Shown in pieces: positions 2,715 through 39,528 of a stretch of DNA of 46,399 nt. Location: NCBI RefSeq assembly GCF_011390875.1, contig NZ_JAABRP010000020.1, forward strand, positions 1 to 46,399. The letters run 5' to 3'. Numbering within the stretch: the first letter of the stretch is position 1; each line of letters starts with the position of its first letter. The position numbers were made by a program, and so were the translations under genes. Below the pieces are notes generated by a model. The model searched no databases. It saw only the letters and a program-made list of their open reading frames with translations, and was not told the DNA's origin. The DNA is from Thiocapsa sp. (GTDB lineage Bacteria > Pseudomonadota > Gammaproteobacteria > Chromatiales > Chromatiaceae).

Positions 2715-3950
2715 CTAAAAATTGCCCTGGAACCAGCTCCGCATCCGCGACCACGCGCCTCGCAATCCGGCGGAATCACCGATCTCGGGCCGCCGCGAAA
2801 AGCGGTGCTGACGCGCGTACATCAGCAGGCCGACGCCGGTCGAATAGATCGGATTGTTCACCACCTCGTCCATCCCGATCACGTACTGCGGGACCCCGAG
2901 CCGAACCGGCATGTGGAAGACCTCCTCGGCCAGCTCGATCAGTCCGTCCATCTTCGAGCTGCCGCCGGTCAGCACCACGCCTCCCGCGACCAGATCCTCG
3001 AAACCGCTGCGGCGCAGCTCGTTGTGCAGCAGGGTCAGAAGCTCTTCGTAGCGCGGCTCCACCACCTCGGCCAGGGTTTGGCGCGAGAGTCGCCGCGGCG
3101 GGCGATCGCCGATGCTCGGCACCTCGATGGACTCGCTGTTGGCCGCCAGCTGCGCCAAGGCGCAGGCATGCTTGACCTTGATCAGCTCGGCATGCTGCGT
3201 CGGCGTGCGCAGCGCCACCGCGATGTCGTTGGTCACCTGATCGCCGGCGATCGGAATCACCGCGGTGTGGCGAATCGCCCCGTCGGTGAAGACGGCAAGA
3301 TCCGTCGTCCCGCCGCCGATGTCGACGACACAGACGCCGAGCTCCTTCTCGTCGTCGCCGAGCACCGAATAGCTCGAGCTCAGCTGCGCGAGAACCAGGT
3401 CGTCGACCTCGAGTCCGCAGCGCCGGATGCACTTGATGATGTTTTGTGCGGCACTCACCGCACCCGTGACCATGTGCACGCGGGCTTCCAGCCGCACCCC
3501 GCACATCCCGATCGGCTCGCGGATGCCCTCCTGGTCGTCGATGATGAATTCCTGCGGCAGGATGTGCAGGATCTTCTGATCGGCCGGGATCGCCACCGCA
3601 CGTGCCGCATCGATGACCCGGTCGACGTCGGCCTGCGTCACCTCGACCTCCTTGATCGCGGTGATGCCGTGCGAGTTGAGGCTGCGCACGTGGCTGCCGG
3701 CGATCCCGGCATGCACCGAGTGGATCTCGCAGCCCGCCATCAGCTCGGCCTCTTCGACCGCGCGCTGAATCGACTGGACGGTCGACTCGATGTCGACGAC
3801 CACGCCTTTCTTCAGCCCCCGCGAGGGGTGCGTGCCGATACCGATGATCTCGATCTGGTTGTCGTCCTTGAGCTCGCCGACCAAGGCGGCCACCTTCGAG
3901 GTCCCGATATCCAGCCCCACCAATAGATTCTTGTCGTTACGTCTCGACAT
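2715..3950 (-). CDS. ftsA: FtsA, actin-like divisome anchor of FtsZ
   Basis: Actin-fold ATPase that tethers FtsZ to the inner membrane and recruits later division proteins. The protein has 411 residues (E. coli 420). The N-terminal phosphate-1 loop GLDIGTSKVAAL is at 12-23, the phosphate-2 motif VVDIGGGTTDLAV is mid-protein, and the adenosine motif GGVVLTGGSSKMDG follows later. The C-terminus ends in a basic, aromatic stretch (WSRMRSWFQGNF) typical of the amphipathic membrane-targeting helix. The ATG at 3948-3950 lies six bases after the ftsQ stop. The stop codon sits directly against a repeat element. Confidence 0.98.
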   Translation of the reverse strand: MSRRNDKNLLVGLDIGTSKVAALVGELKDDNQIEIIGIGTHPSRGLKKGVVVDIESTVQSIQRAVEEAELMAGCEIHSVHAGIAGSHVRSLNSHGITAIKEVEVTQADVDRVIDAARAVAIPADQKILHILPQEFIIDDQEGIREPIGMCGVRLEARVHMVTGAVSAAQNIIKCIRRCGLEVDDLVLAQLSSSYSVLGDDEKELGVCVVDIGGGTTDLAVFTDGAIRHTAVIPIAGDQVTNDIAVALRTPTQHAELIKVKHACALAQLAANSESIEVPSIGDRPPRRLSRQTLAEVVEPRYEELLTLLHNELRRSGFEDLVAGGVVLTGGSSKMDGLIELAEEVFHMPVRLGVPQYVIGMDEVVNNPIYSTGVGLLMYARQHRFSRRPEIGDSAGLRGAWSRMRSWFQGNF

Positions 3951-19129: not shown

Positions 19130-19176
19130 CCTGGAAGGGGCTGGGGGAGGCGCTGGGGGAGGGTTTGGTGGAGGGT
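19130..19176 (-). terminator. C-rich, G-poor tract after rnpB; possible Rho-dependent terminator
   Basis: Directly after the 3' end of the RNase P RNA the transcribed strand becomes strongly C-rich and G-poor, with repeated CCCTCC, CCCCC and CCCC runs, and no intrinsic hairpin with a U-tract was found. That bias is typical of rut sites. The complementary plus strand has six runs of three to five G within about 45 bp and could form a G-quadruplex. The role is inferred from composition only. Confidence 0.35.
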
Positions 19177-19550
19177 CTGGGAGCCGGCCTGTAAGCCGGG
19201 TTCTGTCGGGGACAGCCATTCATCTGGGACGCACGTCACCGTACGCCTCGAGCGACCTACCCGGGGGCACGCGCGGGCCGCGCGCTGCAGCACCAAGCTG
19301 CATGCCCCCCTATTTGGTCTTGCTCCGGGTGGGGTTTACCCTGCCGCTGCTGTTGCCACCAGCGCGGTGCGCTCTTACCGCACCATTTCACCCTTACCTC
19401 CCGTAATGAAGACGGGATCGGCGGTATCTTTTCTGTGGCACTTTCCGTGGGCTCTCGCCCCCCAGGCGTTACCTGGCACCCTGCCCTATGGAGCCCGGAC
19501 TTTCCTCCCTCGCCGCGAAGGGCGAGCGCGACTGTCCGGCCGACTCCCAG
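19177..19550 (-). ncRNA. rnpB: RNase P RNA (M1 RNA, bacterial class A)
   Basis: Catalytic RNA that removes 5' leaders from tRNA precursors, with the RnpA protein as cofactor. The minus strand carries hallmark blocks: GAGGAAAGTCCGGGCTCCAT and AGGGCAGGGTGCCAGGTAAC near the 5' end, GGTAAGGGTGAAATGGTGCG in the middle, GTAAACCCCACCCGGAGCAA, and the 3' CCCGACAGAACCCGGCTTA. The P1 helix is visible: CTGGGAGTCGGC at the 5' end (19539-19550) pairs with GCCGGCTCCCAG at the 3' end (19177-19188) with one G-U pair. The length of about 374 nt fits the class (E. coli 377). End positions are set by P1 and may be off by a few bases. Confidence 0.96.
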
Positions 19551-38215: not shown

Positions 38216-38560
38216 ATGACGCAGACCGAGACACGTATTGAAGGGATCGTGCTCGACGAGGGGCTGATGGTCACACTCACCGAGCTGACCCAGCTGTGCG
38301 GCTCCAGCGGCCGCGTGGTGAGGCTGATGGTCACCGAGGGACTGCTGCGGCCCAAGGGCCGAGACCCGGACGATTGGCGATTCGACGGCTTGGAGGTGCG
38401 TCGAGCACGCCGGGCCGTGCGCCTGCAGCGCGACCTCGACCTCAACCTCGCCGGGACCGCACTCGCGCTCGATCTGCTCGACGAGCTGGAACAACTGCGC
38501 GAACGACTTCGCGCGCTCGAGCACCAACTCGGGCAAAGGCGCACGCGCCAGCTCGGTTAA
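38216..38560 (+). CDS. cbpM: CbpM, modulator of CbpA (MerR-like)
   Basis: Small protein that in E. coli binds the J domain of CbpA and blocks its co-chaperone and DNA-binding activity. The protein has 114 residues (E. coli CbpM 101). It has a MerR-like helix-turn-helix region (VTLTELTQLCGSSGRVVRLM, about 19-38), GLLRPKG, and a C-terminal helix LDLLDELEQLRERLRALEHQ. The TAA stop (38558-38560) is contributed by the left end of a repeat element, and an 8-bp hairpin CTCGGTTA/TAACCGAG (38552-38576) overlaps the stop. Confidence 0.93.
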   Translation: MTQTETRIEGIVLDEGLMVTLTELTQLCGSSGRVVRLMVTEGLLRPKGRDPDDWRFDGLEVRRARRAVRLQRDLDLNLAGTALALDLLDELEQLRERLRALEHQLGQRRTRQLG

Positions 38561-38642
38561 ACCGCGTCTAACCGAGATCGAGGACAACGACAAAGCCAAA
38601 CGCAAAGTGATCATGACGCATGTCGCTCTGGACGCGGTTTAA
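38557..38642 (+). repeat. 86-bp terminal inverted-repeat element, copy 2
   Basis: TTAAACCGCGT (38557-38567) and its complement ACGCGGTTTAA (38632-38642) bound an 86-bp segment, the same ends and nearly the same length as the element at 2628-2714. The right part shares CGCATGTCGC (38617-38626) and ACGCGGTTTAAC (38632-38643), again with exactly five variable bases between them; the middle differs. The left arm provides the cbpM stop codon and the right arm the nadC stop codon, so the element fills the whole convergent gap. Confidence 0.75.
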
Positions 38643-39528
38643 CCCATGAACCGCATCGAAAGGTCGACAGCGGTCACGTCCTTCGTCAACGCACCGACTG
38701 AGATCCGATCGACACCGGTTTCGGCGACCGCCCGAATGGTTGCGAGCGTGATGCCTCCCGATGCTTCGAGGCGGGCGCGCCCCGCGCTCATCGCCACCGC
38801 CAGACGCAAATCCCCGAGCGCGAAGTTATCGAGCAGGATCGATTCCGCCCCGCCGTCCAACGCTGTTTGCAGATCGTCGAGACTCTCGACCTCGATTTGA
38901 ATCGCCACGCCGTCACCGCCGCAACGGCCGCAGCTTTCAGCGCGGCCGGGATCGAGCCCGCCGCGAGGATATGGTTCTCCTTGATCAGGATCGCATCGAA
39001 CAGACCCATGCGGTGGTTGTGGCAGCCCCCGCAGAGGACCGCGTACTTCTGTTGCACGCGTAGACCGGGCAGCGTCTTGCGGGTATCCAACACCTCAACG
39101 GGCAGACCGGCGACCGCGGCGGCGAATTCCGCCGCGCGGGTCGCCGTCCCGGAGAGGGTCTGAAGGTAATTCATCGCCGTGCGCTCGCCGGTCAGCAGGC
39201 CTGCCGACGGACCCTCGATCAGGGCGAGACGCTGCCCGGGTCGGACGCAATCGCCGTCGGCAACCTCCCATCGGACTTCAATTTCGGGATCCAGCAAGCG
39301 AAACGCGGCCTCGAACCAGGTGCAGCCGCAGATGACTGCAGGCTCGCGCGTGATCAACTCCGCCCGGGCACGTTGATCGCGCGGCAACAAAGCAGCCGTG
39401 AGATCGCCGGCACCGACGTCCTCCTCGAGCGCCGCTCGGACCTGGGTCTCGACGAGGCGCAGGTCCGGATGCCGCAACGGGGGAACCGCCCGGGGCGAGG
39501 CAGCCGTCTCCTGTTTTGAATCAGCCAT
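38639..39528 (-). pseudogene. nadC: nadC, quinolinate phosphoribosyltransferase, frameshifted
   Basis: NadC converts quinolinate and PRPP to nicotinate mononucleotide in de novo NAD synthesis. The locus is 890 nt, one base short of a whole number of codons. The first frame (39528 to about 38909) encodes the N-terminal barrel and most of the PRPP site (LDTRKTLPGLR, KYAVLCGGCHNHRMGL, LIKENHILAAGSI) and then turns into non-homologous sequence. Homology resumes in another frame from about 38908 (IQIEVESLDDLQTAL, ILLDNF, ASGGI, GVDRISVGALTK, DLSMRF). Adding one base near 38906-38911 restores a 296-residue NadC with no other lesion. No slippery sequence is present. It is either a recent mutation or a sequencing error. 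GGGAGG precedes the ATG. Confidence 0.9.

Follow-up and report, generated by a model that had tools for sequence, protein, structure and literature searches.

RUP, a 107-bp miniature inverted-repeat transposable element (MITE) of Streptococcus pneumoniae with about 110 copies, is attributed to the insertion sequence (IS) IS630-Spn1 (PMC3049150, PMC2229807). Of 58 coding sequences that overlap another pneumococcal repeat, BOX, 36 have their stop encoded by it at the very 3' end, with no strong evidence of truncation (PMC3049150), and the accessible text of that study gives no target-site mechanism for these stops. Here we describe, in a 46,399-nt stretch of a Thiocapsa sp. draft genome (contig NZ_JAABRP010000020.1, positions 1 to 46,399; the window), an 86-bp imperfect palindrome at 38557-38642 whose ends carry the stop codons of two convergent genes, cbpM and nadC. 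The best explanation, which we consider highly probable, is that the palindrome belongs to the MITEs of an IS630-family (Tc1/mariner-like) IS, which insert at YTAR and rebuild the stop codons that they enter. Among described repeats, RUP comes closest in mechanism and BOX in its place at gene stops.

The likeness to RUP is one of description: like RUP in the published accounts, the Thiocapsa repeat is short and non-coding, has ends resembling those of an IS630-family IS and carries TA at its target. Unlike RUP, about half of its units lie in a stop codon. Like BOX, it is modular and serves as a gene stop; unlike it, BOX is built of boxA, boxB and boxC modules and is compared with ISSpn2 (PMC3049150). 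ISY100, itself of the IS630 family, inserts at TA and duplicates it (PMC2170065), and the TA target and duplication in Thiocapsa agree with this practice of the family. Unlike IS630 and ISY100, the Thiocapsa copies are without a transposase, include a two-hairpin composite and accept YTAR, not CTAG alone. IS630 is said to prefer TA within 5'-CTAG-3', a preference credited to Tenzen and Ohtsubo in 1991. The high copy number, the extragenic palindromes and the composites with short spacing also recall the REP/BIME sequences; unlike these, which measure 20-40 bp and go with tyrosine transposases, the Thiocapsa units mostly measure 85-88 bp, have IS630-like ends and duplicate TA. In unit length and ends the repeat does not fit the REP/BIME group, as the 20-40 bp palindromic unit is absent and the ends are IS630-like. 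The MIRU of mycobacteria, intergenic repeats said to overlap the stop and start codons of their neighbours, differ in sequence and host. Among the open-licence papers listed in our searches we found no account of stop-codon insertion by IS630, MITEs or other repeats, BOX being the sole parallel, and no description of this Thiocapsa repeat family; neither "palindromic" nor "IS630" occurs in the main text of the genome paper on T. bogorovii. The kind of element is already known from RUP and BOX, and it is the extent of its stop-codon niche that seems new.

The element between cbpM and nadC and its family

Read directly from the window, the palindrome runs TTAAACCGCGTC...GACGCGGTTTAA, and as a single strand it folds better than shuffled sequences (z -5.0 on the plus strand, -3.9 on the minus strand). 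The 3' end of cbpM (38216-38560, plus strand) reads GGT-TAA and that of nadC (38639-39528, minus strand) reads ATG-GGT-TAA; their stops, at 38558-38560 and 38639-38641, are the two terminal TAAs of the element and lie 78 bp apart, as the initial annotation had read them. That annotation also took the element for a mobile repeat, and the copy number, the empty sites and the IS-like ends described below all bear this out. On its sequence and fold we assign the copy (no strand given) to subfamily A of the MITE units, 86 bp including the target bases Y-TA and TA-R. Judging from orthologous empty sites of other copies, the duplicated TA would occupy 38558-38559 on the left and 38640-38641 on the right, with 38557 and 38642 as the target bases Y and R, and the element proper would be the 80 bp between the two duplicates (38560-38639), bounded by the terminal inverted repeat AACCGCGTC. 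The end at 38609-38642 reads TTAAACCGCGTCCAGAGCGACATGCGTCAT... on the minus strand and is IS630-like in a 34-nt comparison of MITE ends from two other species, G010 and G001, with the IS ends of genomes G006, G079 and G014.

The window is contig C16 of genome G000, a draft of 3.98 Mb at 91.5% completeness. In this genome TTAAACCGCG occurs 490 times against 4 for the reversed control, and a pattern search recovers at least 133 intact pairs against none in the control. Among 56 genomes, the intact-pair pattern is found in 8 of the 11 from the genus (55-265 copies in the seven besides G000), in one of 24 other genera of the family (9 copies, G028) and in none of 21 genomes further out. A sample of G000, 85 segments totalling 371 kb and chosen for copies, not for stops, holds 177 elements in 126 units, 75 of them single and 51 paired. 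The units are mostly 85-88 bp long, with TAAACCGCG ends, terminal inverted repeats and no transposase gene, and they fall into two main types, A with the end ...CCAGAGCGA.ATGCG and B with the end ...CCCGGTGCGGTATGCG. Paired units are joined by an A+T-rich linker that is alike among many copies and measures 20-22 bp in 44 of the 51 pairs and 11-28 bp in the remainder; the pair looks like a unit of its own, of about 194 bp. Fifty pairs from G010 and G001 allow 100 comparisons of outer with inner unit ends: the outer end is the more IS-like in 90, the inner end in 9, and one is a tie. Among 80 single units, the A+T-rich flank is kept beside the inner-type end in 13 and beside the IS-like end in 2, which fits single units partly being reduced pairs. 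The repeat may also break the assembly: of the G000 contigs C146 and C353, one begins and one finishes inside a copy.

Target site and IS630-family ends

Four clean orthologous empty sites define the target, a single CTAA in three cases and CTAG in one: (i), the copy at G010 5403, CTAA..TTAA, faces CTAA in G002; (ii), that at G010 454680, also CTAA..TTAA, faces CTAA in G001; (iii), that at G001 315910, on the stop of a gene ending EAFLG, faces the native stop CTAA in G010; (iv), that at G001 360531, CTAA..TTAG, faces CTAG, again a native stop, in G010, with a poorer alignment of the right flank. All four fit a target Y-TA-R in which TA is duplicated, and none fits a duplication of 4 bp. Over 94 occupied sites of the G000 sample the flanking-base preference extends to YYTARR. 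In two stretches unbiased with respect to copies, 460 kb each of G010 and G001 (920 kb in total), the outer end bases are T..A 39 times, C..G 29, T..G 18 and C..A 15, ends from the intact-pair search being excluded because its pattern fixes T..A. The matched ends exceed the mixed ones (39+29 against 18+15, p 7e-4), an excess from which we draw nothing since element-free YTAR sites already lean the same way. Both copies in the window carry TTAA at each end, as would a TTAA-specific, piggyBac-like element with a 4-bp TTAA duplication. Such an element is nevertheless hardly conceivable here: the outer bases vary as just described, the homologous transposase is of the IS630 family, and the reading is refuted by empty sites that show CTAA or CTAG and no 4-bp duplication.

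The link to IS630 comes from a 1279-bp element in G006, found by scanning PF13358 loci for unpaired long-range ends after a first scan with an 18-nt pairing test had missed it. Its transposase is of the IS630 family (NF033545, 155 bits against a cut-off of 100; PF13358), with homologues in G079 (80% identity) and in G014 (several pieces of 59-69%, mostly at contig ends). The IS ends open YTAAACC and run on into RTRCGTARTT, like the outer ends of the repeats, and the top MITE end is identical to an IS end of G079 at 29 of 34 positions. Of 364 MITE ends, 67 share at least 15 of the 22 inner positions with one end of the G006 element and 99 do so with one end from G079; among 7280 shuffled ends the numbers are 0 and 2. 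The remaining G006 and G079 ends match 20 and 50 of the 364, with none in either shuffled control. That the repeats are non-autonomous elements of an IS630-family IS is part of the explanation given at the outset and shares its high probability. As possible movers, Y1 transposases (IS200/IS605- or RAYT-type) were set aside: they occur in all 11 genus genomes, including three that are without the intact-pair pattern, and IS630 ends were found instead. Two individual IS copies deserve mention. In G006 the full element (L190:1370-2648) sits on the stop of an hsdR-like gene that closes SYIRQYY-TAA, which we take to be the native end of that gene, and in G001 a decayed IS relic (L286:642-1000) holds a B-A composite inserted in the CTAG of the relic's end.

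Stop codons as sites of the repeat

The initial annotation called for a genome-wide look at copies on stop codons, and in the samples counted here the association with gene ends becomes apparent. Around 113 units of the G000 sample, with genes placed by our own simple gene finder (trained on long frames of that sample), 64 of the 127 gene 3' ends facing a unit stop exactly at its terminal TAA, while 13 end 0-20 bp before the unit, 48 further off and 2 run further into it. Among the 111 units outside genes, 59 have at least one gene stop as terminal TAA and five have two, the window unit being counted with one because nadC is frameshifted in the assembly. In the unbiased stretches, the terminal TAA is a gene stop in 37 of 79 units of G010 and 28 of 53 of G001, and gene ends at the terminal TAA number 39 and 30 against 4 and 1 running elsewhere into the unit. 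YTAR sites in the 920 kb were then classed with the units spliced out, 32 of 132 units being dropped because their outer ends were not both YTAR. Of the 150 YTAA/YTAG stop sites, 51 are occupied. Other non-coding YTAR are filled in 42 of 725 cases (odds ratio of stops against these 8.4, p 6e-19), and YTAR lying 0-60 bp downstream of a stop, where the genes are convergent or in tandem, in 13 of 111 (3.9, p 4e-5). Convergent gaps have 9 occupied sites out of 130, coding sequence 3 out of 300 and gene edges 3 out of 5. The preponderance of stops persists among sites with one and with both preferred flanking bases of YYTARR, and the copy-enriched G000 sample gives 52 of 86 at stops, 41 of 257 at other non-coding sites and 1 of 130 in coding sequence. 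Given these occupancies, neither the motif nor the mere harmlessness of 3' regions explains the whole excess: the link to stop codons is not chance, and the suspected gene-end association is real.

How the stops arise is a separate matter. The initial annotation proposed that the repeat enters gene tails and supplies its terminal TAA as a replacement stop, which would truncate the gene. The terminal TAA is indeed the stop of cbpM, of nadC and of half of the facing genes in the sample, and nadC ends SMRF[VM][GD] in carriers against SMRFTPG in G008, one residue longer and different. Yet in the frame of the terminal TAA the target YTAR by itself spells a stop, TAA or TAG; what the element does is regenerate a native stop, to which it adds just the third base A. 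Insertions in coding YTAR are rare (3 of 300), and cbpM without the element, in G008, ends at the same residue as in the carriers (TRELG-TAG against TR(E/Q)LG-TAA). We compared 257 reciprocal orthologue pairs of G010 and G001. A recognised element marks the stop of just one partner in 20 pairs; of these, 15 have C-terminal tails of equal length and 17 have tails no more than 3 residues apart, compared with 195 and 209 of the 220 control pairs, and the lengths differ in 5, in three of them by more than 3 residues. A repeat remnant lies at the stop in four of the 20 'empty' partners, whose tails are all equal, so that without them the counts become 11 and 13 of 16, and four more carry repeat-like sequence near the stop. 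Where both partners have the element, the tails are equal in 17 of 17 pairs. Thus the gene ending EAFLG closes with CTAA without the element in G010 and keeps that end with it in G001, and GETPELG-CTAG without the element in G010 corresponds to CTAA with the element in G001. Of the 17 pairs whose stop at the element is TAA, 8 have TGA in the orthologue, against 24 of 122 in the control (counted from both sides; p 0.026), an excess expected if TGA genes are not targets, though not proof of it. Replacement is thus largely refuted by the orthologues and very improbable overall; the stops are mostly native. The initial annotation had also held that identical C-termini in relatives lacking the element would make the association a coincidence: the C-termini are largely the same, which speaks against replacement, and the stop statistics contradict the chance reading.

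In our reading the element inserts at YTAR and, as the four empty sites show, duplicates the central TA, giving Y-TA-[AACCGCG...CGCGGTT]-TA-R. Whichever strand is read, one frame of YTAR contains a stop, TAA or TAG, and, because the element begins with A on both strands, insertion in a native stop would rebuild TAA (TAG becoming TAA) and leave the protein unchanged. A YTAR common to two convergent genes would have both of its stops rebuilt, presumably the ancestral state at cbpM/nadC. Since the stop is rebuilt, copies in stops should do the protein no harm and probably persist longer than those elsewhere, and in this way cbpM and nadC may have come to end in one element. The initial annotation saw in such placement a way for a mobile repeat to be tolerated, and this part of its reading gains support. 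The ancestral form was probably a composite of about 194 bp, in which an A+T-rich linker some 21 bp long joined hairpin unit B to hairpin unit A, the IS-like ends lying outside, and single units such as the cbpM/nadC copy would be reduced composites; the IS transposase would have mobilised them in trans.

Whether the bias reflects retention or a preference of the transposition complex can be approached by asking which copies are shared. Among 131 units of G010 and G001, those at the exact site in both genomes lie at stops in 37 of 57 cases and those absent from the other genome in 9 of 26 (4 of 14 with another unit nearby, 15 of 34 without an alignable partner); the difference between shared and absent has p 0.017, an optimistic value as shared sites are counted from both genomes. 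The higher stop share of shared sites points to retention. The 9 of 26 unshared units are nonetheless above the 17% expected (p 0.024), and active targeting, in which the transposition complex would prefer stops beyond YTAR itself (for example through translation termination or a 3'-end feature), would account for this as well as for the occupancy of stops (51 of 150) over sites just downstream (13 of 111) and in convergent intergenic gaps (9 of 130), which holds within the YYTARR flank classes. The full IS copy of G006 on the hsdR-like stop would also suit it. That copy, however, provides the one end among 17 IS ends (copies or fragments in G006, G079 and G014) that closes a long reading frame; at the others the open frames are of 60 codons or fewer, in flanks that are short and under a codon model taken from Thiocapsa. 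We therefore hold active targeting to be unlikely and read the bias as probably due to retention, on top of an early loss of insertions that did harm; genuine targeting may have had some share.

Retention could also be functional, if a hairpin at the gene end aided the host, by forming transcript ends or protecting mRNA 3' ends, roles that have been suggested for other palindromic repeats, and selection kept the copies. The strong fold of the window copy (z -5.0 and -3.9) is compatible with such a role, as is the filling of the cbpM/nadC site in seven species by differing unit types. Of 131 units whose two neighbouring genes were called, 42 have them convergent and 14 divergent (raw counts, not set against a genome-wide baseline), which would fit as well. 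An intrinsic terminator scan of 38300-38900, however, found no such site, and we regard a host function as a tentative idea, more doubtful than not. We would give a similar, low credence to stop codons being the main niche of the element, whether reached by a complex steered by termination or through selection filling about one third of YTAA/YTAG stops (51 of 150 over the two genomes). Were this so, the two-strand stop motif and the first base A would form a 'self-healing' insertion strategy for spreading through a gene-dense genome.

Besides the unequal tails, the remnants in 'empty' partners, the TGA excess, the home-made gene calls and the doubly counted p value mentioned above, several observations weigh against insertion of an IS630-type MITE at YTAR with rebuilding of stops. 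Sixteen units gave empty-site candidates. Besides the clean sites, three junctions of 4 bp have TTCC, CTGA and TCAA in the relative, being either mutated or not the ancestral site, and the remaining candidates are longer or misaligned. With the other junctions discordant or misaligned, YTAR rests on the four clean sites and the conserved ends. Three of the 126 units of the sample end CTGA..TCAG, which TA duplication alone does not explain; in such copies (for example G000 C25:7211 and C53:19749) both arms are altered together and the stop is now TGA, as if the arms of the palindrome had been corrected against each other. Transposase matches beyond G079 and G014 have 40% identity or less, also in other carriers, and the draft G000, at the completeness given above, holds no PF13358 or G006-transposase match. 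With no close transposase in the carrier genomes, activity would be past or unseen; MITEs may outlive their transposase, and one in the same genome is usual, not required. Two IS ends of G014 matched no MITE end at 15 of 22 inner identities. Finally, none of the species examined has kept the cbpM/nadC site empty: its place is taken in G008 by other DNA, 1326 bp long, and G005 has a gap of 69 bp. A stop shared by both genes in the ancestor is therefore something that we infer, a shared YTAR serving both convergent stops being the simplest reading.

If insertion at YTAR with rebuilding of stops holds, it offers a countable account of how a repeat may reach hundreds of copies in a gene-dense genome, through a two-way stop target restored by the element's own end. 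By the same reasoning, other IS630-family elements whose targets resemble CTAG should be enriched at stop codons, and a similar logic is worth considering for the BOX-encoded stops of pneumococcus. For annotators, it means that gene ends coinciding with repeats need not be truncations.

The cbpM/nadC site across species and other features of the window

Seven species carry an element at the same cbpM stop, after TR(E/Q)LG, and G008 is without one there. The unit at this site is of type A in G000, G007 and G001 (82 bp and rearranged in the last), an 88-bp B in G002 and G003, and B-linker-A in G010, an arrangement that G004 shares with an extra partial unit. As differing unit types occupy one site, the insertion seems old and its content turned over; the units seem to have been exchanged or reduced in place, perhaps because dispersed copies, or the repeated ends of units, recombined with one another. 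Several separate insertions at this one site are a possible alternative.

The genes on either side were identified as follows. cbpM has a Pfam MerR_2 domain and a sub-cut-off match to the NCBIfam CbpM model (54 of 138 bits), and it adjoins a CbpA/DnaJ-like gene; nadC has the QRPTase_N and QRPTase_C domains. Compared with G003, nadC has in the window assembly a single-base frameshift near 38918 that splits the gene; its tail, which runs into the element, is in frame. In the other ten genus genomes the nadC frame is open over 301-330 residues across the frameshift region (38900-38930), and the split gene of the window is either an assembly error or a young pseudogene.

A second, diverged MITE copy of 87 bp lies at 2628-2714 (no strand given). 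It adjoins directly the stop of ftsA (2715-3950, minus strand; TAG at 2715-2717), with 0 bases between the two where the initial annotation had counted one. Among known RNA families, RNase P RNA alone reached its gathering score in the window: it is an ordinary bacterial RNase P RNA of class A, at 19176-19547 on the minus strand.
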